Assembly: GCA_021234155.1 (NCBI GenBank)
Contig: JAJEKV010000093.1
Coordinates: 1,178,001 to 1,242,000, forward strand
DNA: 64,000 nucleotides
From: Isoetes taiwanensis
Lineage: Eukaryota; Streptophyta; Lycopodiopsida; Isoetales; Isoetaceae
Reading direction: 5' to 3'
Both the position numbers and the translations under genes were made by a program. Below the pieces are notes generated by a model that worked only from the letters and a program-made list of their open reading frames with translations, was not told the origin of the DNA and did not search any database. Below are positions 2,728 to 64,000 of this stretch, piece after piece (the first letter of the stretch is position 1; each line of letters begins with the position of its first letter).

Positions 2728-3427
2728 TGTGACGTTCCAAAGACAAGATACGGCTCCGGGGCGTGATATTGTAATCGCCATCATCACGCAGCGTACGCCG
2801 CCACCCCGACCGACGGTATGCGCCAACGTGTAGCCAAGTGGGTAGCCCCTAGGGGGCAACTTGCTAAGAATGTGCATTAGTATTAATGTGCACATTTTCC
2901 AATGTACACATTAATGTGGGCACACATTTCCATGTGGCCACTTGATGCCAAGTGGGCCATACCCATAGGTGTAATTAATGTGCACATTTTCCAATGTACA
3001 CATTCATTAATGTGCACACATTTCCATGTGAGCACATTTGGGTGCACACATTTCCATGTGGGCACATTTGGCCACCTAGCCCTTAAAGGCAAGTGGGCCC
3101 TTTTCCCCAATTATCCCACATGCCTAAAGGGGATAATTGGAAACCCTAGCCACCCCTTGTCTATTTAAGTGGGAGAACCCTAACTTGCCCATTTTCGTTT
3201 CTAGGGTTTTAGAGCTCGCTTTTGGCCGCCTCAAGAGCTAAAAAGCCTCCCCTGCACTGCCCCGAGAGAACCGCATCATTAGTTTTCCTTGATTCGAGCA
3301 TTTCAAAGGATGGTCGAAGTTCAGTCGAGGAGGAACTCAAGGATCGGGTATTTAGGCAATTTAGTAGTCTAAACCCCATTTCAGCCATCGAATCAGAGAG
3401 GGTTTAGCCTCTTAAATTGCCCATAGC
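2728..3427 (+). repeat. 5' LTR
   Basis: Matches 9596-10288. It carries internal short repeats around CACATTTCCATGTGGGCAC and a TATA-like CTATTTAAG near 3160, a plausible promoter. The stretch from about 2838 to 3215 is almost identical to the other LTR, while the first 110 bp and the last 200 bp differ at many positions. No clear primer-binding site follows it. Confidence 0.75.
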
Positions 3428-9540: not shown

Positions 9541-9595
9541 AAGGTGGGGAGAACTAACGATCTTTGCGGGCGACATCATTTCAAGGTGGGGAGAA
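9541..9595 (+). other. Duplicated polypurine tract
   Basis: The 13-mer AAGGTGGGGAGAA occurs at 9541-9553 and again at 9583-9595; the second copy abuts the 3' LTR. The second is the expected primer site for plus-strand DNA synthesis. Confidence 0.65.
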
Positions 9596-10288
9596 TGTGG
9601 CGTTCCAAAGACGGATATCGCTCCGGGGCGATATTATTATCTTGCCCCACGCCGCATTACCGCCACCCCTCGTGACGACGCATAGCCGTGTAGCCAAGTG
9701 GGTAGCCCCTAGGGGGCAACTTGCTAAGAATGTGCATTAGTATTAATGTGCACATTTTCCAATGTACACATTAATGTGGGCACACATTTCCATGTGGCCA
9801 CTTGATGCCAAGTGGGCCATACCCATAGGTGTAATTAATGTGCACATTTTCCAATGTACACATTCATTAATGTGCACACATTTCCATGTGAGCACATTTG
9901 GGTGCACACATTTCCATGTGGGCACATTTGGCCACCTAGCCCTTAAAGGCAAGTGGGCCCTTTTCCCAATTATCCCACATGCCTAAAGGGGATAATTGGA
10001 AACCCTAGCCACCCCTTGTCTATTTAAGTAGGAGAACCCTAACTTGCCCATTTTCGTTTCTAGGGTTTTAGAGCTCTGTTTTGGCTGCCTCAAGAGCCAA
10101 AACCGCCTCCCAGAACTGGGTCGAGAGAAGCGCATCATTAGTTTTCCTTGATTCGAGCATTGGGATGGGATGGTCGAAGTTAGTCGAGGAGGAACTCAAG
10201 GATCAGGTATTTAGGCAATTTAGTAGTCTAAACCCCATTTCAGCCATCGAATCAAAGTGGGTTTAGCCTCTTAAATTGCCCATAGCAG
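9596..10288 (+). repeat. 3' LTR
   Basis: Partner of the 5' LTR at 2728. It starts TGTGGCGTTCC directly after the polypurine tract. Similarity ends after TTGCCCATAGC. The true end could lie further right if the 5' LTR has lost its last part. Confidence 0.75.
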
Positions 10289-24604: not shown

Positions 24605-24779
<175 letters not shown>

Positions 24780-26719: not shown

Positions 26720-28308
26720 ATGGCAAACAGAAGGGGTGCTCCTCCCACTTGGTTCCCTGAACTCAATGAAATGGGTTATACGGATGATATCCCTGCTCCT
26801 TCTAAGTTCACGCAGCTGCTTCTTTTATGGGTCAAGGATGAAGAGTTCCATCAGTTTATAATTGAGCACCACAGGAATGCTATTGCTGCTGGTGAAAGTG
26901 TTACCTTTCTGAACACGATGGATGTCAATGGATGGAGTAACTACGTTATGTCTATGTCTCGGGCGCAGAAGCCTTTGGATATCATCAATCAGCTTTCTGG
27001 GTAATTAAATGATATGATTGATGGTGATTTTGAGGAATCCAAGCAGTGTCTGCATATACTCAACCGCCTGGAAAAGGCTATAGCCTTTAATACTCCTGGT
27101 GCGCCTTCGGTATCATCAGCTTCTGATTTCTGTTCTTTAAAGGAGCACCCTTTACTGGCTAATCGCCCCCTCAATGAGGAAGCGGTCCATATTTTAAGTA
27201 AAGAGGACGAGGATGATGAGGTACTTCCTTATGAGAAATTTCGTAAATTTTATCATCCCATTGTTCCTTCCAGGGTTGTTGAAGAGCTGGCCAATGACCA
27301 TGACAACAAAATGTGGACAATGTGGTCTCTTCAGCTGCTTGCTCCATTTAGCGTTGACCTACTAATGTTTCTTAGTGGTATCAAACTGGGAGGCATAGAT
27401 CCTGCTCATGATACTGTCAAAGTGGAGTGCATGAATGATGCTTTGTATGGGAACCGTATCCTTCAGGAGGTGACCCTTAGCCACGTCACCATGAATATGT
27501 TTGATGCACGTAGGTGTTCCAGCTCGGTAAAGCTTTATCTTAAGGGCAAACTGAACACTGGCGAAAACAGAGGTGATGAGCATTATAAGCTAATGTGGAA
27601 CTGGCACCGTCCGTACATTAAGTGTTTTTGCACCTCATCTGATGCTCAAGCTAATCAGGATGCTTGCAAAGGCGGTATTTTATGGTTTGACCATGTTCTG
27701 TGGCTTATGTTGCATCATCTTGATACTTGCTTTCCTAACTGTGATACCATTGAAGGACAATTTGCAGCTTTCATAAAATGGATGTGCAGTCCTAATACCC
27801 GACAAGCGGTTCGGGCACTCATGGTCTTCTGTTCCCTTAGGGAAATGATGCTGCATGGTGCTGCCCAGTATGCCATCAATGCTGAAAATCCGAAAGGAAT
27901 TATGGATCTATATGGCGATTACGAAGGTGCAAGGAACATTGAAAAAATGATTATGCCTCCTTCTTTCACCACTCAAGCACTGAAAGCTAGAAAAGCAGTT
28001 CCTCAGAAGCGTCAGCTGAACTTGAATGCACCTGCGCATAGCGGTGATAATACACTGACAGTGCAAAGATCCAACAAGCGCAATTATAGGGGACGTGGTC
28101 GGGGTCACTCACGGGGTGGCTTCCATAATTCTCCATTCGGTCGTGGTCGGGTACTCCTCATCAGAATAGTGGTTCGGCTTTCCATGATGCAAGGACTCCG
28201 CCTACCAATACTCATCCTGCGACTGGAACTTCAAGTAGAGCTACTACTTCTTCCTCTTCGCCTTTTATGGTTACTCCAAAGAGGCTCTTCTCCAATTTGA
28301 AACAGTGA
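26720..28308 (+). pseudogene. Retroelement ORF1, gag-like protein with RG-rich tail
   Basis: About 530 residues from the ATG at 26720 (MANRRGAPPTWF), which follows ATATATCAG. The frame is continuous except for one TAA at 27002-27004; the same frame resumes immediately (LNDMIDGDFEESKQ), and CAA to TAA would be a single change. The middle is a globular, mostly helical domain with several Cys, His and Trp residues. It is followed by a basic Gly/Arg-rich segment (RGRGRGHSRGG, about 28090-28140) typical of RNA binding. A frameshift near 28150 separates this from a Ser/Thr/Pro-rich tail that ends at 28308 (FSNLKQ). Its position ahead of a reverse transcriptase suggests a nucleocapsid-like role. No named family recognised. 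Confidence 0.55.
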
Positions 28309-28788
28309 TCTTAGCGCTATGCACGCCTGTTCCGACATTTGAAATGAGTAGAGACTGGTCATCACATGAACATCATGCTTTGGATGATCTTCTTTTTGGT
28401 TCATCATACTTTCAGTTTTTATTTTATGTTCTCAACTTGTTTACTGGATTTTAATGTGTTTGGATTCTACTGGATATGTCGTAAATTATCTAAGCTCCAT
28501 TTCCTTACATTCTTAAGCTTCTTTCTTAAGTCTGTTCTTGGTTATAGCTTATCTAAGTTTTATGTGTAGTGACATGTCTTTCATGCACTATTTTCAGTTC
28601 CTTATAAAGTGTTTTAACTATTCTATGCATGTCGTAGCTGTTATGTCTCCTTACCGCTATATGCTGGTTCACCTTGGTGGTGTGGACACGTTTTTGTTTG
28701 TGGTCCATCTTGTATAAGTGCTTCAAATTCTTTTATAACATCACAAATGTTTGGACTTTGTCCAGTCTTTTGACATTCGATTTGCAGT

Positions 28789-30878
28789 ACGTATGCTCCT
28801 TTTGATAGGTACATGGAGGAGACAATGGATGACTGGGATACCACATGCCAAAAAAAGGTCGTAATCAAACACGGCAGAAAGATCATGGTTAAGTCTGACA
28901 GGGAAAGATCTTTCTACGTCCACATTTTATATGTTAACCGTGCCATGGAACACATAAATGTACGTGGTTTGTTTGAGTATGTTCTGTCACAGTGTTCTAC
29001 GATGGATTTCTGTGATATGATGTCCCAAGTCGTATTTGGACGGCGTTACAAGGAGAGCATGTCTGCCTTATGGTATTCACCATCGGATACTTTCTGTAAG
29101 TTTTCGTGTTCTGAAATTTCGCCATGCTATTGCACCTCTTTGAAACGTTTCTTTCCATTCATTCGAGACTGTGGTCAATTTGGTTGTCATGTTTTGACAC
29201 TAGATTTGGATATTATCCATCACAAATTATTGAAGCAGGAAATGGGGAAAGGGTTGAATCATATTCCTCTGTCAAAACCGGATATTCATGAGATCATTTC
29301 GGCAATTACTGATGGGTGGAATTTGTTATATAGTATTCTTTCCTCACACTTAATACTGAGCAATTGTACCGCATTGGGAGATTATTGAAATCTACCATTA
29401 AAGCCAAGCTGAAAAAGAAGATTACAAAAGCTTCTAATTTATTGGATTGCAGTACTGCCATGGATGAATTGCACTGGTTGAAATCCCACTTGTATGTTGC
29501 CGGCATTGATAAGTCTGCCATGACACCTTCCTTCATCTGTAAACAGTACCTGAGACAGTTAGCCCTTGAGAGACTATCCAGCAGTGACTTCGTGCCATGC
29601 TTGGACTCTAATTTGAATTGGAAATCAGTAATGGATTGTGTAACTGAGCTTTCCTGCAATCTAAGTGCACTTATTCATGCTACCCATATTGAAAACCTTA
29701 AATTGCCTTATTTAATGGCTATCTTTAAGGCACACAAAAATTCCATGAGGTGGCTGACCAATGCTGCTGGTTGTGTGTTCTCGCAAATGGCATTGCTTAT
29801 TACTAAAGCCTTGCAAGCTATTGTTCCTTTATTGCGAAAGAAGTGCAATACACTTAATCAATCTGTTCTCAGATTCTTAAATGTCAAAACTAGAAGCTTT
29901 TGCGTGTTTGAGGCAATTTCGTGGAGTATCACACAAGCATTCAAACAGGCTAAACACAGTAATCCTTACCTTTGTGCTAAATTTTATGGTGATGGTAATG
30001 CGTGCTTTGAATGGAAAAAATCGGTTCCACAATCTGAAATTTGGTCGGTGGTATCTGCATCTGACTTAATTGGGTGGAATGAATGGTTACTAGCACATAA
30101 CATTGTGAGACTTGGTGACAGAGCATGGCGACAGGTGAAAGGCATCCCCATGGGCTTTTCCTGTTTACCGATTTGGTGCAACTTGTATCTAGCCTTTTAT
30201 GAGTTCCAGTTTATAGCGAAATTATCTCGCTTGGGGAGACCAGATCTTCTTTCTTTATTTGCCAACACATATAGATTTATTGATGATCTGTGCTCTTTGA
30301 ACAACGCTTACATGTTCAAGTTCTTACAGCCGGGGACTTGTGTGGATGCCTCGGATCCATTTACTATTTATCCCTTAGATCTTCTTGAGATCAAACCTGA
30401 AATGGAGGATGTGGTTCGATGTGATGAAGCATCGCATTGTACTAATGCTCATTTTCTTAGCTTGGATATACAGATTACGGACCAGGCCAGTGGTGGCTTC
30501 TTACTCTCCAAATTTGATAAGAGAAGATCTCTTCCCTTCAAGTATGCGCAATATATTTGGCTGGCATCTAACAGACCAATTAATGCAGCATATAAGGTGG
30601 TTATATCTCAAGTTTCTCCTCTATTATACTACTGCAATGATATTGAGTCATGTGTTCGAGAAATTATGATCACTATTGAAGCATTTCATAGCAATGGATT
30701 CAAAAAGGATAAGTTGTTACGCATTGTTACTAACATGCTGAAAGCAAACAACTTTCCTGAAGCTAAGTGTGACCCGTCCACGTTAATTGATCATCTCCTA
30801 TATCATAAGCATGCAGGTATGGAGTCTATCTCTTTGGTTTATCACATGCAACTAGTTTTTACAGTTTTTTCAAGTTAA
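28789..30878 (+). pseudogene. Reverse transcriptase, Penelope-like, frameshifted
   Basis: The frame is open from about 28789 (TYAPFDRYMEE; first ATG 28813). An N-terminal part has a Cys cluster (CKFSCSEISPCYC, 29095-29133), then HVLTLDLDII (29188-29217) and KGLNHIPL, which resemble the conserved block upstream of the palm in Penelope-like elements. A frameshift near 29340-29364 follows. The second part has KAHKN (29727; compare KxHK of motif 2), KGIPMG (30138-30155, motif B) and FIDDL (30276-30290, catalytic motif C). The usual Asp of motif A is not seen before CVFEAI near 29905, so the enzyme is probably dead. HKHAG followed by GTATGG near 30810 could be a splice donor. Alternatives are a cellular rvt-type gene or an unclassified reverse transcriptase. 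Confidence 0.65.
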
Positions 30879-46100: not shown

Positions 46101-47330
46101 TAAACAAACAATGGATAGACCATGTGGGTCTGATTTGCATGTGCTTTGAGCCCATCGCTATTCAATGTATTTTAAGATAAGGATCAACACGTGCTCGTTG
46201 GTGATCTTACTCACCTTTCTTCATATAAGGTATTTATTTATGTCTCCTGATAGACTCCTTGCTGCAAATCCTAAAAACATATAGAATCTCAGATTGAAAG
46301 AAGAGTAAATTCAAATACCTGGATGTTAAACACCACTAGCTCAGAAACCTCTGGGAATTAGCCGAGATCCATTCAGATGATTCATGCATGTGTAAGAGAA
46401 AAGCTATCCATGTATACTTTGGCAATGCCCGGATCCATGTCTTCCTAATATTTACGTGTGAATGTTTCAAAGATATTTCGATCCCCGCAGATTCATAGTG
46501 GTGGCTACATGTACCTATCCATCCTGCTCGAGGTGAATCGATGAGTCGAGATCCGCGAAAAATCTTACCGGTGTTTTGCTATCATGAATACATGCCTTTG
46601 CCTCATCTAGCTTCCACTTTGGTACAACAAAACCTTTTATTTGCCACAACGGCCCTGTTCAAAAGCCTATTATTTGCCACATCTTACATTCAATTAATGT
46701 TCACAACACCGCTAACAAAAAATTCTTCAAACCTTATTTTACCTAGGCATAAGGTCTTGAACTTTCTTGCCACCGGATAATGTGAAAGTTTGCCACTTTT
46801 AGAGCTTATACTTGGAAAAACAGAGTTACCTAAGCTTCCAAGCATCATTTCGGATGAAGTCCTACGCTCATTCTATCGATCGAGTGAAGCCACGCTTCCA
46901 AACTTAGGTTAGTACAAGATGCACAATGGCGGTTAAGCTTTACCGGCAAATGTGGATGACCTAGCATTTAAGACTTTTACGGGATAAGTTTTAGCGATTT
47001 TTGGCATATTCTAGGTATATGCTAGCATATACCATGAATATGCCAAAACTCTTACATAAACCGGGATTGCCCCTAGGGGCAACCTGACAAAATTCTGGTT
47101 CGCCAGCCACCGCAGAATGGGCAAAACCAGAACTTCGCGGGTTGTAACGCTTGCAAAAGCCAAAAGGGGCGCCCAATTCAATTCACTCCTAGGGCAAAAG
47201 CCATACCGGCCTGCGAACACCATTTCACCGCCATCCGACAACATGCTTTGGGCCCGCAAAGCTCAAACCAAATCTTTTGAAGAACAATCTTTTAGAGTGC
47301 TCGATCACATTTTGCTTTTCTGAGCAAATT
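43193..47330. other. No gene recognised
   Basis: About 4 kb with short frames on both strands. The longest (45781-46155, minus, 124 codons) has no known domain. A 46-bp tandem duplication is listed separately. Confidence 0.4.
44587..44680 (+). repeat. 46-bp tandem duplication
   Basis: ATTAAGCCTAG(G/C)ATGGATACA... is present at 44587 and 44633 with one or two differences. Confidence 0.9.
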
Positions 47331-47338
47331 GGCGCAGA

Positions 47339-47935
47339 ATGGCTAAAATTGGTTCACATGAATTTGCAATATCTGCTGGGCTCAATTTCATCACCAAGAT
47401 CATTCTATTTCTCAACATTTTAGCCGTGAGGCTTGTTACAAAAATCCCTCTGTATCTCAACAGTCTGGCCCGCCGGAAAGATTTCACCCTAAATCGCGCC
47501 TTATTAGAGCTTTTCGAGTTTAAGGCTGCAAATCCAAAAGCCGTGAAAGGACTAAGCAGCAAGGATGTAACTGTGGATCAAAACACAGGCATAACGGTTA
47601 GAATATTTTCCCATGTTTCAAGGATCCAAAAGAACCCCATCACTTTTGGGTTGTGTATTACCAAGGAGGAGGAGGATTTGCGACTCGTCTGTCCTTTTAT
47701 GTATGATATATTCTGCAGAAGGCTAGCGAGAAAGGGGCGTTGTGTTGTGGTTTCGGTGGATTATAGAAAAGCGTCCGAGAAGAGGTATCCGGCAGCACAT
47801 GAGGACAGTTTTAGGGTTCTAAAATGGCTGCAAGAAATGGGATGCAGATCTGTCGAGGTGTTTTCTATTGGGGGATTCTGCCATTAGCATGAAGAGAGAT
47901 GAAGCAGCAGATTCCTTATGCCTGATGCAAGGTTT
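47339..47935 (+). pseudogene. CXE/GID1-type carboxylesterase, frameshifted and 3'-truncated
   Basis: Plant CXE proteins are alpha/beta hydrolases (fold 3). The frame from 47339 has an N-terminal region, then GLSSKDVTVDQNTGITVRIF, a loss of frame, and YDIFCRRLARKGRCVVVSVDY with KRYPAAHEDSFRVLKWLQE. The oxyanion-hole motif HGGGF appears in another frame as VVYYQGGGGF (about 47652-47681; H replaced by Q and one extra Gly), showing two compensating indels. The nucleophile motif appears as LLGDSA in a third frame near 47865, after which similarity ends. The catalytic Asp and His region is absent. The gibberellin receptor GID1 is in the same family, but I cannot assign this copy to it. Confidence 0.85.
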
Positions 47936-50032: not shown

Positions 50033-50640
50033 ATCTGCTTCAGAAACAAAATTGAACTTCAAATCAACCATATTTAACCTGCTACGCTGATTATTTAGAA
50101 CTCAAAATTTATAAGCAAATAGGATAAATAATCATGCAAATCTTACATTTTTTCATTCAGCTCCCAGGCAGTAACAACTGGGATGGTCTCTTTTTTTGTG
50201 GCCGAGCTGAACATTCTGCTCCAAGCCCCTGGTGGAACTCCATAGCTTGTACAACTTATCAGAAAATAAGAATCTAAGAAAACCGTATGCTCCTGAGTAG
50301 ATACATAAAGGGGACTGTTTGGTGATTTTCTCAGAAAATACGTGCATATCTTTGCTCCGTTTTTGGATGCAGACAATCAAAAAATCTAGGGCAAGCAGTG
50401 ATGGTCCGGGAGAGGTAATGGTTCGAGAGAATAGGATTTCTCTGCTTTGGTTTTGTATGCACACAATCGAAAAATCCAGGGCAAGCCGTGATGGTCACGA
50501 GAGAATGCAATTTATTTGCCGTTGGCTTCCAGTATTGCATTAAAACACAAATCAAATCTCAGCCATTTGGATAATCCAACCTTAGATCTAAGCCGTCCAA
50601 TCTAGAGCTTGGTTCATTACAGACATTCAATAACATTATA
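50033..50640. other. No gene; ~100-bp direct duplication
   Basis: A segment with CAATC(A/G)AAAAATC(T/C)AGGGC and AGCCGTGATGGTC occurs at about 50370-50410 and 50462-50505. Confidence 0.5.
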
Positions 50641-50669
50641 ATGGGAGAATTGGGAACAATCAAGCTACA

Positions 50670-51362
50670 TTGCTTTCAGGTGAAGGTCATGTTTTGTGGC
50701 TGAATGAGCGTTCAGATGGTTTGCTTTGCTGGCCACGCCAATCACCAGATACAGTAAAGAATAAAATGGGTACGCATGTTCTTGCTCTATGTGAGTCCTT
50801 CAATTTCATTGTATACAATGGACTTGTGAGATTTTCAGGTACAAATTGTTTCACTTGCATACAACCAAATGGAAATAGTACTATTGATCTTTTGTTAGGA
50901 GAACCGGAGGCAATTGGGTATGTGACCGATTTTAAGTTCTTGGAAAGAAATCCAGATTCTGATCATGTGCCTTTTATGTTTCAATTGAATGCCCATATTG
51001 TTAAGCGTCCACCTGATGTCTCTCCTCCTCAAAAAATAAAGCTTAATTATAAACTGGCAGATAAATATGGAAACGCATTGAGTGCTAAACTAGAAGAGAT
51101 TCATTTACAGGAATCCCTAGAAGAAAAGAGTAGGAGGCTGACTGATGTAATAATTGATACATCAGGTTATATATTTGGTTATGCTCCTAGTAGGAAGAGA
51201 CGTCATAGTAAATGGTTTGACGCAGACTGCCTCAAGGCAAAAAAAGAGTGCATGAAATCTATAGATCCTCTTGTTTACAAGCAGTATAAAAATTTGGTCA
51301 AGCAAAAAAAAAAGAGATTGGAAGCGCCAACACCAGGAAAGGGTCATTCAAGAAGTGGATAG
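50670..51362 (+). pseudogene. LINE ORF2, end of endonuclease and linker
   Basis: A 230-codon frame with GTNCFTCIQPNGNSTIDLLL (around 50844-50900) and SDHVPFMFQLN (from about 50958), the last two endonuclease motifs. A lysine-rich linker follows with KWFDADCLKAKKECMK. The catalytic GDFN motif would lie upstream and is missing. The frame stops at 51360-51362; the next frame carries on from about 51330 (VIQEVDRDPRSFWNR), showing a one-base slip in an A-run near 51305-51315. Confidence 0.8.
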
Positions 51363-52361
51363 AGATCCAAGAAGTTTCTGGAACAGGTCATCTAAGAAGA
51401 CAGAAATTGGAGATATAACAAGAGATGATCTTCTCTTTTTGGTCTCAGAATTATATAGCACAGTAGATACAGGCAATTTGGATTGCGCAGGAGAAGCTAT
51501 ACCCATATTCATGGAACAAGATGTACAAATAGCCCTACAAAAAATGAAAAATGGACATGCTTGTGATTCAAGAGGTATGTCAATTGAGTTTTTTAAATGG
51601 GGAGGAAACGAGCTTTGTAGCCTCTTGGCAGATCTATGCAATGAAGCACTCTTGAGAGGATATTTCCCTACAGAATGGTGTCTAAATAGAGTTGTGCCCA
51701 TACATAAGACTGGTGATAAGGACGACATTAAAAATTATAGAACCATTCTAGTGAGCAATGTATTTGCTAAATTATTTATGACAATCTTTGGAACTTAAGA
51801 TTACATCTTTGAGGAGGAAAGAGCAAAACATAAGAGCACCGGGGACAGGCGGGGTTTTAAGATGCAGATCACTCTACCTTGGATCACCTAGTCACTTTGA
51901 GAGTGCTCACGGAAGGTGCCAAAGGTACAGGCAATAAGAGATTTTTAGCATTCATAGATCTTACTAAAGCCTTTGATAGAGTGAATCGCACGCATCTTGC
52001 TGAAAGACTTGAATTGTTGCAAGTCCCTATTGAATTGCAAAAAGCTTGTCTCTATAATGAAGTTTTGGTTGAGCTTTCTTTTCCTTTTTCGGGATCTGAA
52101 AAAATCAATAATACAATTGGAGTTAAGCAGGGCTACCCATGCTCTCCTACCCTTTTTGGTTTGCTTATAGATGAGCTCGAATGTTGGATGACAAGGCTAG
52201 GTGGCATGGGAGCAAGGCTTGGGAAATATGTATTGCAATTGCTAATGTTTGCAGATGATATAATATTAATTTCAAGGGATGCAAGTGGGTTACAGAGACA
52301 CTTGGACGTGCTTGAGTCCTTTTGTTCCTCTAAGCAAATGCAGATTAATGTAAGTAAATAA
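51330..52361 (+). pseudogene. LINE ORF2 reverse transcriptase
   Basis: Two frames with a break near 51798-51879. The first has NGHACDSRGMSIEFFKWGG and W.NRVVPIHKTGDKDDIKNY, the fingers region. The second (51879-52361) has motif A AFIDLTKAFDRVN (from 51948), motif B GVKQGYPCSPTLFGLLIDEL (near 52120) and motif C LMFADDIILIS (FADD at 52248-52259). The catalytic aspartates are all present; the frame break makes this copy inactive. Confidence 0.85.
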
Positions 52362-53622: not shown

Positions 53623-54580
53623 GAGGCTCGGGATACTTTTACCCTTGATTCGGTGATCCAGGAGATAAATTTACCGGCCTCGGGATCCGGGTTCTCCGAC
53701 GGGAGGGGTCATTCGGGAGACCCGTTCGAGGTATGGGGGCGCCCGCGGCATTGAGACCATCCCGGCCGTCCAAACCCCCGTGCAATGGCTACCGATAAGT
53801 CGCCTCGTAGATCCTCAGGGATCATCCCCACGATCCCCTCCTCCGGGATCCCCGCGATTGAAGTCGATGGCTGGTAAGGGCGACGATATCCTTAGGTGAT
53901 CCCCTCTCCGGGATCCCGGGCACCCCCATCGGGATCCCCTCCTCGAGGGATCACCCCTAATGGGCGATAGCTACGGGCCGCTTATCCGCCGAGGGTGATC
54001 CCCTCCTCGGGATCCCGGGCACCGAGACCGGATCCCTCTCTCGAGGATCACCCCTAATGGCCGATAACGGCGGACGCTTTATCACGCCGAGGTGATCCCC
54101 TCCTCAGGGATCCCCCCACTCGGGCCTTGAATCCCCTCCTCCGGATCACCCCGCCGTATCTGACTTGGCCGGACCCATCGGCCCGAGGTCACCGGGCCGA
54201 GGCTGTTAACGGCGGACCCTATCCGCCCGGTGATCCCCTCCCTCAGGGATCCCGGACACCCCTGGCGGATCCCCTCCTCGGGGATCACCCCTACGTAGTC
54301 GATAATCGGCGGACGCTTATCCGGGCTGTGGTGATCACCTCCTCCGATCAACCCCGTGGTCGATAACGGCGGACGCTTATCCGCCGCGGGTGATCCCCTC
54401 CTCCCGATCGCCTAACCGGTGGGCGTCGATAACGGGCGACGCTTATCCGCCGTATTATCCTCCCAGGATCCCGGATATGAGGACGCGGAGGCGGAGCTAT
54501 TCTCCGCCGCTAGATGCACTCCGAAATGGGTTTGTCATCGGCCATTAGATCCGGTGATTTATACCTGGCCCTCAGGATCC
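53623..54580 (+). repeat. Left terminal inverted repeat of the MULE, hairpin/GGATC array
   Basis: The outer part is followed by about seven degenerate units of roughly 110-130 bp. Each has GGCGGACGCTTATCCGCC-like sequence (itself an inverted repeat, GGCGGA...TCCGCC), then GGTGATCCCCTCCTC and GGGATCCCCG..CACC. Very GC-rich, CpG- and GATC-dense. Confidence 0.9.
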
Positions 54581-54599
54581 CTACAAGCAAAGAACTTTA

Positions 54600-56030
54600 A
54601 TTTTAAAATTAAATTCTGACGGGCCATTAACCATGGTAACGCATAATCCTCGGCCCGCCACGTGGGACCTTGGGATACCGGAGGGCTGCAGAGACCTCGC
54701 CGATTTCGAAGAGTCCAAGTGCGGGCGGGGAACTCTGGTGGGTGCACGGGATTCCTGTACCACGCTGGTTTTGCGGGCGACGGCACCATTAGCGACTAGG
54801 AAGTCGTTTTACATCGTTTACCTCTGTATTACTTGAGGGTTACGGAGGTAAAATCGAATTTTCGCCCTGTTATATCAAGTTTTTACTATTTCCTACTATT
54901 CTTTACTAAATCTTCGCGTGGCTTGCGGATGGGCCGAATCCTTAAACACGGAAGTCGGCCTCAACACCCGTTTTTGGAGAATCTTTGTCTTGAAAGGCGC
55001 TTCATATGCATTCAATTCGGGCGTCACGGTGAATGAAGCGGATTCGGATCTTAGAGGTGGAGTCCCCCGGCCGTCGGGGCAACAAAAATTGGATGAAGGG
55101 GAGGAAAAATCGGTGGGGAAGAATAGAGAGGAGGAGGTGAAAGAACGAGCTTTTGTGGGCGGCTCAAGCTGGCGGGCGATTTGAATGAGGAAGGGGGCGG
55201 TAAAGGAGGGTGTTGTCATGAAGCGAGCACGATCTTGGCGTTACTTGAGCGAAGAGCCCCCGATTCTGATTCACGATCGGTGGCAAAGAGATGGAAGTGC
55301 TTAGTTGATGATCGCACCAAAAGTTACTCGGGAAGGTTGAGCTCGAAAATCCACGGGTTTCGAAAGTGCATGCCTTGGTTGATAGGTGGCGGGTTCACGA
55401 TGCTTGCCGAGGGGAGGATCCCAAACCGTATTCATTTGCCCAAATGAGCCCGCCAAGGCGAATGCCAATCGGAAGAAGAGGAGTTATGCAAAGGTTTACG
55501 TGGCGGAAGCATGGATCCGGACTATAAATATGCCCACAACCTCACCAAAAAAATTGCGGAGGGGCGGGAGACATCTTTGGAGTGGTGGCCGATGAGCAAA
55601 TTGAAATGGGTCTTTCGATAAGAGCCAAAGAAGCCTTCATTAATTTCTGGGGTGCAGAGGAAGAAAGCAAGTGAATTGGAAAGCCAACAATTTGCGGTCG
55701 AGGGAGATAAAGGCACGGATCAGGCGAGCACCAAAAATTTAATCTCGATGATGAGCTTTGGCCTCCACTAACCAAAAGCGAGGAGCAAAAGCCAATTGGG
55801 CCCGGTGATGATGTGGCGAGGAGGTGGGCTGCGGCGGCCAGTAAGCATTCGTCTCCTTTGCCTAAAACTGCCCTTTGCCTAAAGCTGCCCTTTGCCTAAA
55901 CTTTTGTGTTGCCAAAGCCGGGGCCAAAAAATTCGGAGGCATCGTGCGGATCAAAACCCCCAAAACCTCCTCCTAAATCCATGAATTCATGGCGCTAACG
56001 GATCCTGGAGGCCGAGCTCGAAGATAATAT
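54600..56030 (+). other. MULE cargo region, unassigned frames
   Basis: Several plus-strand frames (54918-55184, KLDEGEEKSVGKNREEEVKE; 55181-55447; 55386-55595) read in one direction with frame changes. They may be upstream exons of the Ulp1 gene; no domain is recognised. Confidence 0.4.
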
Positions 56031-56039
56031 TCCCAAGCC

Positions 56040-57049
56040 CGGCAAGATTATGATGTATCATTTGTACTCTGTCGATCCACATTTTCTCGATTACGTTTTG
56101 GACTACCAAAGAGGTGTTGATGCTTGTCCGTCGATGGCAGTGCCCTTCACATTAAATTTCCCCTGTGGTGGTTGAGAGCCCTTCATCAAGGTGGGCAGAC
56201 AAGTCGACAAATGTCGAGTTTTACATCCAAGAAGCCGAGGCCCTAAAATTTATGACAATCCCTTAAATTCGGGGGATGCGGAGGCGATGTGGACTTCGGA
56301 TTGCATTGGTTCTTATCTCTGTAAGTTTTAAGTTCTTAAGTTTCTTCAATTTCAGTTTTTCATTGCACTCAATTGCTCAATTGGTTTATGCAGGTAATGA
56401 TGCACTCAATTCCAATCGAGAAAAGGTGCCATCATGTGTTCTTGCATCCTCACTGCATTCGGGCTGTTCTTGAATGGAAGCAAGGCGGGTTGGCGGGGGC
56501 TTATGGCAGTTTGCCAAGCTCATCCCGACAACCCGTTTGGTAGGGAAACACGGTGGAAGATCGAAAAGCACAATTCTATTATATTTCTGTCAATCTTTGG
56601 GTGGCTTCGAGATCCTTGATTATTTAAGTTTTAAATCTATTCTAATTGCCTTTCAAATTGCTATTTCTTAGTGGCCATTGGAGCCTTTTCATCTTAGTGG
56701 TGATGGCACGGCGTGTGCTTTCGGCTTGGAAAGCCACGCCCTTGCATTACGCACCTTGATTCATATGCCCCCTTGCATGCATCTGCAGGAATTTGTGACA
56801 CCGTAAGTATTCCTCTCTAACTTTCGAAATATTTAATCTTTTGCATTATGATTGAAGCTAATTTCTTATTCATACTTGCGAGATTCCTCACGGCGTGTTT
56901 AAGAGGTGGAGGCATGAGGAAAGTGCATTGCATAATGCACCGCATTCCATTAGAAACTCCCCAAAGACACAATAATTGAGGTTGTGGTGTGTATGTCATA
57001 AATTATGTGAAGAAATTTGTTAAAGACATCGTTGGCAAGGAGGATAATG
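56040..57049 (+). pseudogene. Ulp1/SENP-type cysteine protease (C48) gene in the MULE
   Basis: Ulp1-family enzymes cleave SUMO or related modifiers using a His-Asp-Cys triad. Recognisable parts are FYYISVNLW (near 56567), GHWSLFIL (56673-56696; catalytic His at 56676-56678), and ETPQRHNN followed after a stop by GCGVYVINYVKKFV (catalytic Cys at 56983-56985, with the Gln-x-Asn ahead of it). They are separated by intron-like DNA (TTTCTTAG before the His exon, CCGTAAGT near 56800, AATGTGAGT at 57048). Upstream, MYHLYSVDPHFLDYVLDYQR (56053 on) is a plausible earlier exon. The Asp is not certain (LESH in one frame). One stop just before the Cys suggests inactivation. Confidence 0.65.
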
Positions 57050-57670
57050 TGAGTCTTTGAGTTTATGTTTCTTGTTTCTTTTTTTAGGCAAATTTTAGGT
57101 TCATGGCTAAATTCATGTTTTAATCACGGTCGATTAACCGTGATTGGTTCAAAAAGAAGACATAGATTGCATGAGGTCGGGGCTTCAAGATAATGCTCGA
57201 AACTACATGATTGCTTGGCTGCGGGGAAGTCCACCTTTTACTTACCCGGGGGTGACACGGGTGATAGCGGGATCCGGACCAGCTTCTTTGGTACATGGTC
57301 CTTGACATCTTTGTAAGGATCTACAAGTTTGTGAATGTGAATATCTCAAAAACTCCCAATGTGAATATTTTCTTGAATGTGAATATCTGGAACACTTGAA
57401 TGTAATTGTCTTGAATGTGAATATCTTCATCAAGTCTTCAATGTCAAAGCAAAAGCAATTGAATGTAATTTTGGCTTTTGGCAATGGCTCAATGCACCAA
57501 AAGAATAATGCTTCAAAGCTTCCACCATAGTTTCAACATCAAAGTTTATTATTGCCCTTTGTTCCTAGACATATTCCAATGGTTAATAATACATTCATAA
57601 TTTCAATGGTTAACATATATTAACATGTTAAATTTGTTGAATCTTGAATATATATTAACATGTTGAATCT
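57050..57670. other. Ulp1 gene 3' region with short repeats
   Basis: GAATGTGAATATC recurs four times (57330-57430) and AATATATATTAACATGTT twice (57605-57665). No coding domain. Confidence 0.5.
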
Positions 57671-57672
57671 TT

Positions 57673-57960
57673 GTGATTGTGAGGGCGGGATCGACAAGCG
57701 GCGGACGGGGGATCTCGGAGGATGGGATCTATTTTAAAGGGGTGTGTGATCGGGAGGAGGGATCACCAAGTAGGCTGAGCGGGCGGGATCCCGGGAGGAG
57801 GGATCCGTTTTCCTTTGTGTGTGATCACGGAGGGCCGGGACCAAAGTACTGGTGGGCCGCAGGATCCGGAGGAGGGATCCGTTTTAATTAATATGTGATC
57901 GGGAGGGCGGGATCACCCTAGCGGGGCGGGATCCGGAGGAGGGATCCTGCACGTATTTTA
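57673..57960 (+). repeat. Internal GGATC array 1 of the MULE
   Basis: About four units of GATC(C)GGGAGGAGGGATC with (C)GGGCGGGATC spacers, alternating with TTTTAATTAATATGTGATC-like AT segments. Same vocabulary as the terminal repeats. Lies between the Ulp1-type gene and the unknown gene. Confidence 0.85.
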
Positions 57961-58105
57961 TTACTTTTGGTACTATGGTCCAAGGCTCCATGGTCTTAAC
58001 TTGGCTAAACTCAAAACATTTTATCCCTATGGTCTTACCTTTAGAAATTGAATTCATGGCTTAACCGATTTGTACAGCGGTTAGTACAATGATTGGCTCA
58101 TGAGT

Positions 58106-58840
58106 CTATATATACTCATGCCTTGATCTTGGTAGAAAGTTGAGTTGATTGGCGGTCTCTCGGTTGAGTTCGATGCTTGATCTCTCAGTTCAATTGCTTC
58201 TTTGTTCAAGCCAAATGGTGAGGACGAACAACAAGTTTGCCGAGAGCGGTGCCATCAATGCCCATACACTTGAGGATATTCTCGTCCACTTGAATGAAAT
58301 TGAGGAGGATGTGGGCCTAGAGCTTCGCCCAACCCTGTGACATCAAAGCGTTGAGTAAGCTTCATATTCATGTTCTACTTTCATATTAATCTTTTCATGA
58401 TCCCCTCATGCTTCATGCGAGACCAGTGGAGAATGGGAATTGAGGGGAGACCCTAGGCATCTTGACTATGCTCCGGTAGTAGGCCAACCCATAGGGCATT
58501 GCTTTGGGAATTGAAGAAGTGTATTATCGAGGGCAAGGCTTTGAAGCGTTTGCTAGCTACGGATGTTATGCGGGAAGGCAACACCCTTAAAAGCTTGCTT
58601 CGAGGAAATGTATCTTTGCGCGAGGTTTGCGAAAGAAGGATCCGATCGGGGATGTCCTAGAGGGGTCCGAGCCAACCACGTGCGATATTTTTGATCACAT
58701 GATGTGGAGACTACCTGCGGTGTGCGGATGTATGGGAGGAGGTCAGGCGCGAAGCCATGGCAAAAGTGCGGGGAGGTAGATTCAGTGATTAGAATTGGAA
58801 TGTCGGTTTTAAGCCATTGTATTAAGTTCAATGTTTCAAA
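58106..58840 (+). CDS. Small MULE gene of unknown function
   Basis: A TATATATA box at 58107-58114 precedes an open frame from about 58149 (ATG choices at 58170 and 58218) with MVRTNNKFAESGAINAHTLE and DILVHLNEIEEDVG. A possible donor (GAGTAAGC, near 58351) ends this exon. The next stretch (about 58500-58650) reads LWELKKCIIEGKALKRLLAT and REGNTLKSLLRGNVSLREVC, and then WEEVRREAMAKVRGGRFSD to a stop near 58793 after a frame change. It is acidic then basic, helical, and has no known domain. Bracketed on both sides by GGATC arrays, it is a third transcription unit of the element. Confidence 0.45.
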
Positions 58841-58949
58841 GCTTATTAAAAGTAATGGTTAAGGGATATTTCAATGGTTATTCCAAGACATATGTCAATG
58901 GTTAAGGGATGTTATAAATAATATACTAACAAATTCAATCCTGTGATCC

Positions 58950-59195
58950 AGGAGAGGAGGGCGGGATCACCGAGCCAAGCGACGCGGGATCGGGAGGGCG
59001 GGATCACCCGAGCCGGGCGATGCGGGATCGGAGGAGGGATCCTCTTATAACTAGTGTGTGATCGGGAGGAGGGATCCCGTTATAACCCGGTATGTGATCC
59101 GGAGGAGGGGATCATCATGCTAGGCGGGCGGGATCGGGAGAAGCGGGATCACGGGAGCTAGGCGCACGCGGGATCAGGAGGAGGAGGGATCCCGT
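58950..59195 (+). repeat. Internal GGATC array 2 of the MULE
   Basis: Five to six units of GGGATCGGGAGGGCGGGATCAC and GATCGGGAGGAGGGATCC with CCGAGC(C/G)(A/G)GGCG spacers. Lies between the unknown gene and the 3' end of the transposase. Confidence 0.85.
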
Positions 59196-59975
59196 GCTTT
59201 TTTTATTAGTTTTTATCCTATGGTCTAAACTCTAAACATTAAACATTTAACTCAAGGTTCTAAATTATCCTAACATTTAACTCTAACAATAAACATTGAT
59301 AACATTGACAATATTTATAAGTACATAGGTGAATATTGATTTATTTATACCTCTTGTTTACAAAACTCTAAACTTGACTGAACAATTAACAAGACAATGA
59401 AGCTCATGAGGTGTCAATGAGCATTAAACAACAACAAACTCACGATGCCATTCTCACAACAGGCCCTCCATCTCAACTTGCTTCCAACTCTTCTTGGTTT
59501 CCTTGTCTTTCCTCTTCCCAATTTCTATTAGAGGCTTCAGCCTTACCAAACTATTACCACACTCCTCTTCCCTTTGCATTAGTGGGGATACATGTCATGG
59601 TTACGTTAGAGCACATTGTGGCCAACATCATCCATTCTTTCAAGCGGCGTGTCGAGTTGTCTCATGAGTGAATCAATTGCAATTAGCATGCCGGATCTTT
59701 TTCTGCCCTTGACATCACTCTAGCAATGACTTCTTGTAAAGATCTCCTTGTCTTATCGGGTTAATCCTTGCCTCCTTTTGAGAGGGAGACTCGTTCAAGC
59801 TTACAATCTCAACCACATCTTAGGTATGTGGTTTCCTCCCCCATGAGGGGCCCCATGATCCTCACATGGCCTCAAGTAGTCCATGCCCCACAAATTGACC
59901 CATATTGAGATCCAAGCACGTAAAAGATCTTGATCCCCGTCAGTTGCCCAACATTTGCATGACCTTAACTTGGTG
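59196..59975. other. Transposase 3' flank, no further gene seen
   Basis: AT-rich DNA to about 59400, then a short plus-strand frame (59411-59671) that lies opposite the transposase end and has no domain. Confidence 0.4.
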
Positions 59976-59979
59976 CTTA

Positions 59980-62104
59980 CATAAGTTGCCCTTGGCTCCC
60001 GAGGGGGATGATCGGCATGCCCAATTCTTGTGTGCCCGTTCACAAAGTATGGTCCTTGCCCTAGAGTCGTTCACTTTGCATACGCCTCACCTTCTTGAAG
60101 TTAGTGAATGTGACACGTTCATCGGCAATCTTCCTTGCACCCAATATGGCACATTGTATTATCTCTTCACGGGAGGTGTTCACCACAAACCCCTGCTTCC
60201 TTCATGGACCTAGATGACAAGAGAATTATATTCTTGCAAAATCAAAATAGGCTACAAATGATGATTAGAAGTTATACGATGTATGCCATGTGTGTCTCCA
60301 CGTTGTTGGTTAGAATGTAGAGGAGCAGTCAATCCTCCGTCCCCTGAGTGCTTTCGTTTTGAAATGCCCAGCGCCTTTTCAAGGCACAATGCCATGCCTC
60401 TATGGCTGCATTAGTCTCTTGGTTGGAGTGAGGGGTACATCCTTGTAGCCAATACCCATTGGCAAATGTTTTTGGTCCTCCTTACTCATGGCCAGCCAAC
60501 TTGGGGTATTGAGGATATTTCCTCAATAAGTCCTCCAATTTCCTAGTTGCCTCCCTCCTTCTTGCCTCCCTATACTCTTCCGCATACACATTGTCCCCTA
60601 GAGGACCGTGGTACGTACATAATGTAACCAAGTTCCTTGAAATGGTCGTTCGTGCCACCTTGTTCTTGATGTTCTTACGCAACCACTTGATCCAAGCCCT
60701 CCTCACGTGCCATATGCAAATTTGCACGGGCACACTAGGAAAAACCTTTGAAATTAAACAATGTTAGTACACTTGTGATTTGCTTCCAAGGATTAGAGTT
60801 TGACAAGTTACTTTTTCGCGGCCTTTATCTCGGCATGGGCATCATCGTAATGATGCAAGAAGGCTGCCAATCGGGGATCATCTCGGCATAAGGACTCCTT
60901 TAGTGCTTGCATCCACTTTGTTATAGCTCCACTCTTTTGAGAATTGGTAATAACGTAAGCCAATGGTAAACCATTGGAATACTCATCAAAAGAAGTGTGA
61001 AAAGATAGAACCACGCATTAAACCATACACAATAATCAAATCAACACACAATAAAAGTTGAGGAAGAACCAGCACCTCTTGTCGTTTTGTTTTGAATGTA
61101 GAGTCCATGCAAATGGCTTTGTTCTTGCCAAATTTCAACATGGACTCCCTTTGGATTGAGTCATAACTCCTAATTGAAACAAGTCTCCTTGCTCATACAT
61201 GAACACAGAATCTTGATGTTGTTGAACCCACATGTCAATGCTAGTGGGAAGATCTTCATGTAGCTTCCATGTGTTACGAACAACTCCCTTTTCAATATTG
61301 TACCGCCCCAATTTTCAACACATCATCCCTACACATGCTTTCCTGTCCATTCACTTCAAGTCTCAACCTCCACCTCTCTTCATGCATGTTCATTACACTC
61401 GTGGTGTGCCATTGGACAAGCTTAAATCTTACCCATTCCCTCAATTCTTGTGAGATCCGGGGTGCTAGCTTGAACCTAACTCCAAAGGATGGGTCAACAA
61501 ACCTACCATGGCGAGGCAAACCTTGGATATTCTTGTGATCAAACCCATAATAAGTGATATGTGAAAAGTGCGGAAGGAAATAGAGTTGCGATTGTGAAAT
61601 GGCACCGGCAGCCCCTACGTATGCCCTCTCCCCTCTCAACCCTTTTCCCACGTGTTGGTGGACGTGGTCTTTCCTCAACCACATGAGTGTTTTTTGTCTT
61701 GTCACGAGGTCCATATGAACACCAATATCTGAATTGTGCATTACAAGTTAGTATTAATCTACTAGGTGTAATCTTAATGACAAGCACCTCAAATGACTTA
61801 AAAAGCAAGATTTATAATCAAACACATAGGCGAAAGCAAACACATAATCTTGGACTCATGATTTAAAACAAAAACACATGTATCAAACCAATACCTCTTC
61901 AACGTCACATATGAATCCTTGTAGGGTCTTTTTTAACACTCTCTCGAACCTTGAACTTCTTAGATAGAAATTGGCGGGTGCTTCACAATTCCTCTGCTCC
62001 CCAAGAACGAAATCTTGGACCCGGTGCGTATGGATGTAGCAAGTCCAAACAAGCATCCGCCACCCCTTGAATATCAATTTACAAAATGCTCTTCGGGATA
62101 CCAA
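59980..62104 (-). pseudogene. MULE transposase with zinc-binding N-terminus and SWIM finger
   Basis: Catalyses cut-and-paste movement of the element. On the minus strand in order: exon frame 62104-61883 (ending FICDVEE, possible GTATTG donor), acceptor TTCAG near 61733, and a Cys/His N-terminal region with GCRCHFTIATLFPSA in one frame and PRHGRFVDPSFGVRFKLAP in another. The core follows: CMDSTFKTK (first catalytic Asp, 61103-61105), GLPLAYVITNSQKSGAI, YDDAHAEIK (second Asp, 60829-60849), ICIWHVRRAWIKWL (60692-60712), and AIEAWHCALKRRW (60368-60412). Near 60055-59985 is a SWIM-type finger (C..NWACRSSPSGAKGNLCKH). An intron probably separates 60808 and 60733. Several frame breaks are visible; some may be introns, so activity is undecided. 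Confidence 0.85.
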
Positions 62105-62559
62105 TGTAAGTTGCCATGATCAAACAGCCATTTGGAGGTGTTTGAACATATCTCGACCCTGGAAATAAGAACAAGCAGAAAATGACAACGCTTGTTTTCG
62201 GGCTATTATCTCGACCCTAAAAGCCGGAAATAAAAACATTAAACACAAAATCGTAGCGCTTCTTTAAAGCCCTTGAACTTACCTCTTCTCTCTTACGCTC
62301 TAACTCGTCCATAGTCGCGGCCCGTACCGCGCATTAAGGCTCCTCCTCCATGCCTCGCTACTTCGACATCGACCACACGCGCGAGGGGCGAACCACACTC
62401 CGGATGGTGATCCCGGAGGGTGGTCTCGAACGTCCGCGTGTTCTCATTGTATTGGTTTGTCGTGCATGGGCCGCGGGAATTCAAACTTAGACCACGATTA
62501 GTCCCCGCTATCTCTACAGGCCCAAACATTCTCATATTCGCCTCCTAATCCGCAGGGGC

Positions 62560-63419
62560 AAATGACAATGGGGATCCCGGAGGAGGGATCACCACGGCGG
62601 ATAAGCGTCCCATGGTTATCATTGAGGGGATCGAGGAGGGGATCACTGACGGATAGCGTCCGCCGCTATCGACCATTAGGGTGATCAGGAGGAGGGATCT
62701 GCGTCCGGTGCCGGGGATCCCGGGAGGAGGTGATCCTGCCGGATAGCGTCGGCGGATTATCGACCATGGGGGTGATCGAGAAGGGGATCCAAGGTCCGGG
62801 GTGCCCGGGATCGAGGAGGAGGGATCACCTCGGCGGACAGGGTCCATGGCCAAGCATCCAGTGGCCGTGACTCCTACCGATAGGGTCCGGCCAACCACGG
62901 CCTGGGTGATCCCGAGGAGGGGATCAGCGTCGAGTGCGGGGATCCCGGAGAAGGGGATCACCTCTACGGATAAGCGTCCGGCCGTTATGTCCATTAGGGG
63001 TGATCCCGTGAGGGATCCCGTGCCGGGTGCCGGGGATCCTGAGGAGGGATCACCTCGGCCCGGAGGCCCGCCAAGTATCGGCCCATTAGGGTGTGATCTG
63101 AGGAGGGATCCAAGGTCGTGGTGCGGGGATCCGGAGGGGGATCACCTCGGCGGATATCGGCCCTAACAGCCATCGGCACCGCGGGGATCCGGAGGAGGAG
63201 GATCGCGTGGAGATCCCCGAGGCGGGGATCTCTCGAGGCTGCGACGGGCCACATTACTCCGGGTTTGACCTACGGGATGGTGCAGGCCCGATGTGGCGTC
63301 TGCCAGATATCTCGAAGCGAGGGTCTCCGAAGCGGACCCGTCGAGGAGACCGGGATCCGGGAGGCCGTAAATTTATCTCCGGGATCACCGAATCAAGGGT
63401 AAAAGTATCCTGAGCCCTC
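62560..63419 (-). repeat. Right terminal inverted repeat of the MULE
   Basis: Reverse complement of the left terminal repeat, with the same GGCGGATAAGCGTCCGCC-type hairpins and GATC(C)CGGAGGAGGGATCACC units. The outer end AAGGGTAAAAGTATCCTGAG lies at 63395-63414. Confidence 0.9.
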
Positions 63420-63597
63420 CGAGGCCTCACGAACGGTGAAAAAGAGGGCGGCCCTTCTTTCTAGTCTTTATATATGTTTAAAAAAGCCGAAACCCTAATA
63501 CGCACCCAAAAGCCCTAATACCGCAGTACGCACCCAAGAGCCCTAATACCGCGGGGGAGATTAGAACCCTATCCAAGCTTCGGCCGGGCGAACCAGC
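63420..63597 (+). promoter_or_regulatory. RPS11 core promoter and 5' leader
   Basis: TTTATATATG (63467-63476) is a TATA box; the telo-box AAACCCTAA is at 63490-63498. Two more copies of GCCCTAATACCGC follow (about 63522 and 63540), giving three near-tandem CCCTAATAC elements with CGCACCCAA between them. Telo-boxes are common in plant ribosomal-protein promoters. The MULE end lies 48 bp upstream of the TATA box. Confidence 0.75.
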
Positions 63598-64000
63598 ATG
63601 GCGGACCAGGTAGGTCATCTTCCGTGCAAGATCTGGAGTCTCTTATTTTCTGTTTTGGTTTTGCACTTAAATTTTTCTTTTGTCGATCTGCAGACGGAGA
63701 GAGCTTTCCTTAAGCAGCCCAAGGTCTCCCTTACGTAAGTTCATTCTTTTAGTTCCGCGTTTCTGGTTATAGTCATATCTTAATACCTCATTTGGACTGC
63801 AGCGGGAAGAAATCTGGCAAAGGAAAGGCCCCCGGGAAGGCTGGAAATCGTTTCTGGAAGAATGTTGGTCTTGGATTCAAGACTCCACGAGAAGCTATTG
63901 AAGGTATTTGTTTTAGCTAAGTAATGTCTTTTAGCTGTTTGACAAGCCTCTTGGATAATTTTGTAGTCATGTTAAATTGACGTTTTTGTTTTGTAATTCT
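63598..64000 (+). CDS. RPS11: 40S ribosomal protein S11 (uS17), 5' part
   Basis: Component of the cytosolic small ribosomal subunit. Exon 1 is 63598-63609 (MADQ), exon 2 is 63694-63734 ([13 protein letters not shown]), exon 3 is 63803-63903 ([18 protein letters not shown] then [15 protein letters not shown]). All splice sites are canonical (GTAGGT/CTGCAG, GTAAGT/CTGCAG, GTATTT). The plant S11 start is usually [15 protein letters not shown] with GNRFWK and GLGFKTPR later, so the match is very strong. The frame is intact and the rest of the gene (about 110 residues) continues beyond the right edge, after a third intron starting at 63904. The very short first exon and the introns inside the first 20 codons are as expected for plant ribosomal-protein genes. 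Confidence 0.97.

Follow-up and report, generated by a model that had tools for sequence, protein, structure and literature searches.

GATC-pair box arrays in the termini and inner gaps of a decayed Mutator-like element as possible docking sites for an element-encoded protein

What might a short motif be doing in the inner gaps of a transposable element when it also recurs throughout the element's terminal repeats? The question is raised by a decayed Mutator-like element (MULE) at positions 53625-63416 of the window, the 64-kb stretch of DNA analyzed here. Its left terminal arm (53625-54480) contains the terminal motif (53625-53692), 12 GATC-pair boxes and hairpin spacers, and its right terminal arm (62570-63416) contains 15 boxes, hairpin spacers and the terminal motif. 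The arms are inverted repeats with 74% identity over a 755-column alignment, complementarity reaches 88% in the outermost 68 bp, and the first ~40 bases of the element ends are nearly unaltered; long terminal inverted repeats (TIRs), a hallmark of the Mutator/MULE superfamily, are thus present as arms of ~0.85 kb. In the case of the initial annotation, which had described inverted terminal repeats of ~0.9 kb built from GGATC/hairpin units, the description holds for both arms, but the hairpin units do not extend to the inner arrays. Mid-arm segments fold as RNA more stably than their shuffles (z -3.5 to -4.0, 100 shuffles each), whereas the inner arrays barely differ from theirs (z -0.3 to -2.0, 100 each) and lack the hairpin motif of the arms, and hairpin units within the inner arrays were therefore set aside as unsupported. 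A target-site duplication, which in the Mutator/MULE superfamily measures 9-11 bp, was sought at 8-11 bp and not found at the element edges with up to one or up to two mismatches; with two allowed, one or more matches arose in 36% of 300 trials that used random left flanks. Such a duplication can be lost in an old insertion, so that its absence characterizes this copy and not the family; either the copy is old or one edge has been altered. Further copies of the arms or arrays were not detected elsewhere within the window at 1e-4, and no RNA families were found in it at gathering scores.

The element lies upstream of a uS17/RPS11 gene in the interval 63417-64000 (PF16205, E 1.8e-13), whose ATG at 63598 is ~180 bases past the element end and whose best PDB matches are entries that we take to be plant ribosomes; the DNA is likely to come from a plant. 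Mutator elements favor gene neighborhoods, and this position agrees with that preference. A 28-bp repeat of about two copies (63499-63552) separates the element from the ATG. Elsewhere in the window, 2727-3427 and 9595-10286 are direct copies (92% over 705 bp, ~6.9 kb apart) that resemble the paired LTRs of a retrotransposon, and a perfect (CA) repeat, 85.5 copies long, occupies 24607-24777. Long open frames of 431, 204 and 514 amino acids at 27005-30875 gave no Pfam match, and the 514-residue frame gave no PDB sequence match, though its motifs presumably resemble those of a Penelope-type reverse transcriptase. An alpha/beta hydrolase fragment is found at 47324-47884 (Abhydrolase_3, E 1.3e-14), and LINE-like remnants at 50634-52358 comprise an RVT_1 match at 51861-52358 (E 3.9e-22) preceded by a weak endonuclease match (E 0.045).

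The gene content of the element was assessed from its decayed reading frames. A MULE transposase gene is certainly present, and broken, on the minus strand at 59946-62041, where it is recovered as five collinear tblastn pieces distributed over frames -1, -2 and -3. The single homologue among 5759 candidates, P0001, has 28% identity over 87% of the hand-joined reading (E 5e-40), and in a plain tblastn search of the window it returns the five pieces in order from 62041 to 59946, with a best E value of 4e-12 and a weakest of 0.017, the last piece being a SWIM-like stretch. For P0001 itself, the matches to PF21056, PF10551 and PF04434 fall short of the respective cut-offs, and PF10551 matches the transposase at E 2.5e-5 in the hand-joined reading, again below the cut-off, and at E 0.047 in a plain frame. 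The longest open run in this region was reached by 10 of 300 shuffles, an excess of open frame. On the plus strand, a C48/Ulp1-like gene is probably present, on a weak match: a single frame with one stop at 56878-57057 matches Pfam Peptidase_C48 at E 0.029, below the cut-off and with the stop read as X. Joined readings gave E 0.23 for a strict join and E 0.004 for a looser join that includes a guessed residue, the latter having SENP7 as its best PDB match (E 0.17), while whole plain frames gave no C48 match at E≤1. In a six-frame reading of the window, three C48 core patterns each occur once, and all at this site. The C48-side reading found no homologue at E≤1 among 4053 candidates from a database that seemed poor in plant proteins, and this side shows no excess of open frame (longest run reached by 171 of 300 shuffles). 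Pfam searches gave no match to the VANC-type domains DUF1985 and DUF287, either in the C48-side reading as joined by hand (E≤10) or in plain frames (E≤1). MULEs bearing Ulp1 genes were reportedly described by van Leeuwen in 2007 from melon, Arabidopsis and rice. A putative third gene at 58215-58792 on the plus strand, running from ATG to stop, broken, and preceded by TATATATA (58107-58114, plus strand) starting 108 bases before the ATG, remains unproven: it matches no Pfam family, has no homologue among 49 candidates, and shows no coding signal, as 207 of 300 shuffles equal or exceed its longest open run of 64 amino acids. Of the three-gene MULE with an Ulp1-type protease that had been proposed, the transposase therefore stands, the protease is plausible, and the third gene lacks coding signal.

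The box common to both arms and to the two inner arrays has the form GATC-(6-12 nt, mostly GGAGGAG-like)-GATC, and was counted as GATC-N4..14-GATC, with an interior of 4-14 nt. Inner array 1 (57684-57948) and inner array 2 (58945-59193) each contain six boxes that are G-rich on the plus strand, and their edges differ by no more than ~12 bp from the intervals originally proposed (57673-57960 and 58950-59195), whose placement is confirmed. They do occupy the gaps that flank the third-gene stretch, although to say that they lie exactly between genes goes too far insofar as that gene is unproven. With 12, 6, 6 and 15 boxes in the left arm, array 1, array 2 and right arm, these four blocks (2.2 kb) take up 39 of the 52 box spacings in the window, and one of the 13 outside them falls in the transposase region of the element. 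Their GATC counts, in the same order, are 26, 14, 14 and 30, in each block above the maximum of 500 dinucleotide shuffles (24, 9, 10 and 24; means 14.7, 3.4, 6.0 and 15.6). The boxes are also directional: all 12 inner boxes are G-rich on the plus strand, as are 13 of the 15 in the right arm (two unscored), while 9 of the 12 in the left arm face the opposite way as C-rich boxes, two being unscored and one being scored G-rich because its spacer reads GAGG too, a quirk of the scoring. The sequence GGAGGAGGGATC occurs 12 times in the window with at most one mismatch, always within the inner arrays and right arm; the left arm adds one occurrence at two mismatches and eight at three, and the DNA outside the four blocks accounts for 4 of 18 matches at two mismatches and 65 of 99 at three. 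As sequence, the box arrays are real and far above chance, and the element has a motif array in one orientation in its terminal and intergenic non-coding DNA, as VANDAL and KIU elements do.

Neither inner array is a copy of a terminal repeat. In the arms, boxes are separated by alternating short and long spacers, many of the long ones with a CGGCGGA-type hairpin, whereas the inner arrays have short spacers that are AT-rich or GC-rich, with one longer exception in array 1. CGGCGGANAAGCG occurs four times in the arms and not at all in the inner arrays, where a single CGGCGGA is present in array 1, and the terminal motif is not convincing inside. The two inner arrays resemble one another (local score 76; shuffle maximum 36 in two controls of 200) more than either resembles the arms, compared in matching orientation (scores of 43-54 against shuffle maxima of 35-40). 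Inner and arm boxes are set apart by their flanking bases, for which none of 2000 permutations reached the observed value, and by their cores (2 of 2000), figures that overstate the separation because boxes within one array are not independent. The view of the inner arrays as further arrays of the same units as the TIRs is thus correct for the GATC-pair box and unsupported for the hairpin units.

Similarity between the inner arrays extends modestly into their flanks. The left flank of array 1 (L1, 57540-57683) resembles that of array 2 (L2, 58800-58944) with a score of 36 against a shuffle maximum of 33 (57540-57675 versus 58800-58944, two controls of 500), and the right flanks score 31 against a maximum of 30 (500 shuffles). 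An AATAAA on the minus strand stands at the right edge of each array, at 57957-57962 and, past the transposase gene, at 59202-59207, and AATAAT is found on the plus strand at 57585 and 58917; within the 3 kb scanned, other AATAAA hexamers lie at 57545 and 59340 (minus strand) and at 59288 (plus strand). Because flanks and arrays are alike in the same order, we infer that the inner arrays may have arisen from a single [3' flank - array - 3' flank] spacer that became duplicated, array 1 having perhaps been at first the spacer between convergent genes. Such a duplication would have left the putative third-gene stretch with a copy of the module on either side.

In base composition the four blocks also differ from the regions between them. 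Observed/expected CpG is 1.03 in the left arm, 1.01 in array 1, 1.04 in array 2 and 0.94 in the right arm, with TG/CA at 0.54-0.75, compared with CpG of 0.84 on the C48 side, 0.71 in the third-gene region and 0.62 in the transposase, with TG/CA at 1.10-1.25. Thirty outside windows with GC≥0.5 have a mean CpG of 0.70 (sd 0.21, maximum 1.07), a comparison that is not GC-matched, since the GC of the arrays is 0.61-0.65 and the maximum in 214 outside windows is 0.596. The CpG and TG/CA values of the arrays fit low past methylation, and turnover of the arrays could be an alternative source of the same CpG signal. Their G-richness is unexceptional, as stretches at 31.2-31.6 and 42.1 kb of the window score higher, and it was dropped as a special property of the arrays.

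The closest parallel for this arrangement is found in the VANDAL elements of Arabidopsis. There the VANC protein binds short motifs and thereby undoes silencing, and VANC21 of VANDAL21 occupies introns and intergenic and terminal non-coding DNA in which a single short motif, always facing the same way, is present at high density (PMC5735166). Many of these bound regions are tandem repeats, the units of which diverge in concert (PMC5735166, PMC10398659). According to a 2026 review, a group of such elements has three coding genes, of which one is an Ulp1-bearing VANC gene termed KIU (Kaonashi) (PMC13317346). The present element is similar to these VANA-, VANB- and VANC-containing elements in having a MULE transposase, a probable Ulp1-like region (the Ulp1 domain being a feature of the KIU group), a motif array in intergenic and terminal non-coding DNA, and motifs that diverge together (PMC5735166, PMC10398659, PMC13317346), but it differs in that the VANDAL21 motif is the 9-base YAGTATTAY, found also in introns, and the box here is GC-rich with paired GATC. 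VANDALs have no TIRs or short ones of 46-174 bp (PMC6446971), in contrast with arms of ~0.85 kb here, and they feature a VANC-type domain; with no DUF1985 or DUF287 seen and with long TIRs, the element was not filed as a VANDAL.

Our preferred reading, a tentative one that we put at a probability of about 0.42, is that the box arrays in the arms and inner gaps are docking sites for a DNA-binding protein, encoded by the element, that countered its silencing. The protein would dock on the GATC-pair boxes, might be the product of the C48-bearing gene by analogy with the KIU genes of VANDALs, and by its binding would oppose silencing of the element; docking would account for one box being shared by the termini and inner gaps and being hardly found in the gene regions. 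Docking is supported by this distribution, by the single orientation of the boxes inside each inner array (although boxes within an array lack independence, and two arrays pointing one way are weak evidence), by the inner boxes forming a group apart, as if arrays diverge together, by the likeness of the flanks of the two inner arrays, by CpG values that fit low past methylation, and by the precedent of VANDAL21/VANC21 and KIU (PMC5735166, PMC13317346). Counting against it are that the evidence is one dead copy without DUF1985 or DUF287, that the box is unlike the VANDAL21 motif, that the C48 match is weak, and that the C48-side reading and the third gene have no homologue. A more specific version, which we consider unlikely, is that a TIR-bearing MULE outside the VANDALs evolved its own sequence-specific anti-silencing system, in which the GC-rich GATC-pair box, amplified in the TIRs and the spacers between genes, would be the address of an element-encoded protein with a C48 domain that relieves this element, and no other, of SUMO-dependent silencing, and in which [3' flank - array - 3' flank] modules would duplicate as genes are taken in.

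The main rival to docking is transposase binding in the TIRs, with the inner arrays as by-products: box repeats of the arms that served as transposase-binding or promoter sequences would have extended inward through slippage or recombination between arrays, and would have no role there. We find this doubtful, though it draws on the box common to arms and inner arrays, on the duplicated flank-array-flank module, which shows that such recombination would occur, and on published MULEs, whose long TIRs contain promoters as well as sites for transposase binding and in which extra TIRs, some of them internal, are found (PMC3310237). It is at odds with the restriction of CGGCGGANAAGCG to the arms, apart from the one CGGCGGA of array 1, and with inner arrays that have their own spacers and are confined to gaps, although an old by-product would still be compatible with these. 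Those multiple- or internal-TIR MULEs resemble the present element in having TIR-type repeats that are also internal and without target duplications around them, but their internal and external TIRs have at least 100 bp in common, while here the box alone is shared (PMC3310237).

The proposal that the arrays are terminators or insulators ranks third, and seems to us quite improbable; the idea is that a G-rich sense strand at gene 3' ends would slow the polymerase behind a polyadenylation signal. Both arrays do lie downstream of presumed plus-strand genes with a G-rich sense strand, and the minus-strand AATAAA at both right edges and the plus-strand AATAAT are circumstantial points in its favor. 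However, AATAAA occurs at other places in the 3 kb scanned, the G-richness of the arrays is unexceptional, array 2 is C-rich in the sense of the transposase, and the same boxes are present in the terminal arms, where Mutator promoters rather than 3' ends are located (PMC3310237). We therefore favor docking over terminators or insulators, from one dead copy, given that a probably Ulp1-bearing MULE with motif arrays at its ends and between its genes closely parallels the VANDALs. Relics of a nested separate element or a second TIR, which had also been suggested, are very improbable. Beyond the common box, this idea has a weak match of the terminal 68 bp in module 2, where 4 of 500 shuffles attained its score of 26 and 9 of 500 the reverse-strand score of 22, but in module 1 the same sequence was not detected (scores reached by 61 and 204 of 500). 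Inverted flanks were absent for array 1 (409 of 500 shuffles) and weak for array 2 (17 of 500), the duplication-like 8- to 9-mers were three at array 1, all box parts, and two eight-mers with one mismatch at array 2, and the arrays, pointing in the same direction, are not two ends of one element. These tests largely reject a nested origin, with weak signals left for array 2.

Other MULEs resemble the element in part. Grapevine Ulp1-bearing MULEs have a MULE transposase and an Ulp1-like region, with opposite orientation known, and inner arrays are unmentioned in the portion available (PMC2528002). MuDR has convergent genes between long TIRs (PMC3310237, PMC9168764), but here the second gene is probably C48-like, and inner box arrays are present. 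Hvu_Abermu of barley has three ORFs, one opposite to the transposase, and is likened to the element by layout; the accessible text does not mention arrays (PMC9168764). Our literature search, covering titles and abstract openings and few subscription papers, found no report of inner box arrays in a TIR-bearing MULE. The initial annotation's view that internal arrays would be new must be narrowed, since the intergenic arrays of VANDAL21 (PMC5735166) and internal TIRs (PMC3310237) are known; what is new is the long TIRs built of boxes that they share with inner arrays, together with the duplicated spacer module.

The function of Ulp1 genes in such elements is unknown according to the 2026 review (PMC13317346). 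If the boxes are docking sites, the reason that some MULEs retain Ulp1 genes would become testable, TIRs and spacers would use one address code, and anti-silencing by motif arrays would be recurrent among Mutator elements and not a peculiarity of VANDALs. If the arrays are instead by-products, they would still illustrate how a spacer module may be duplicated as an element grows.
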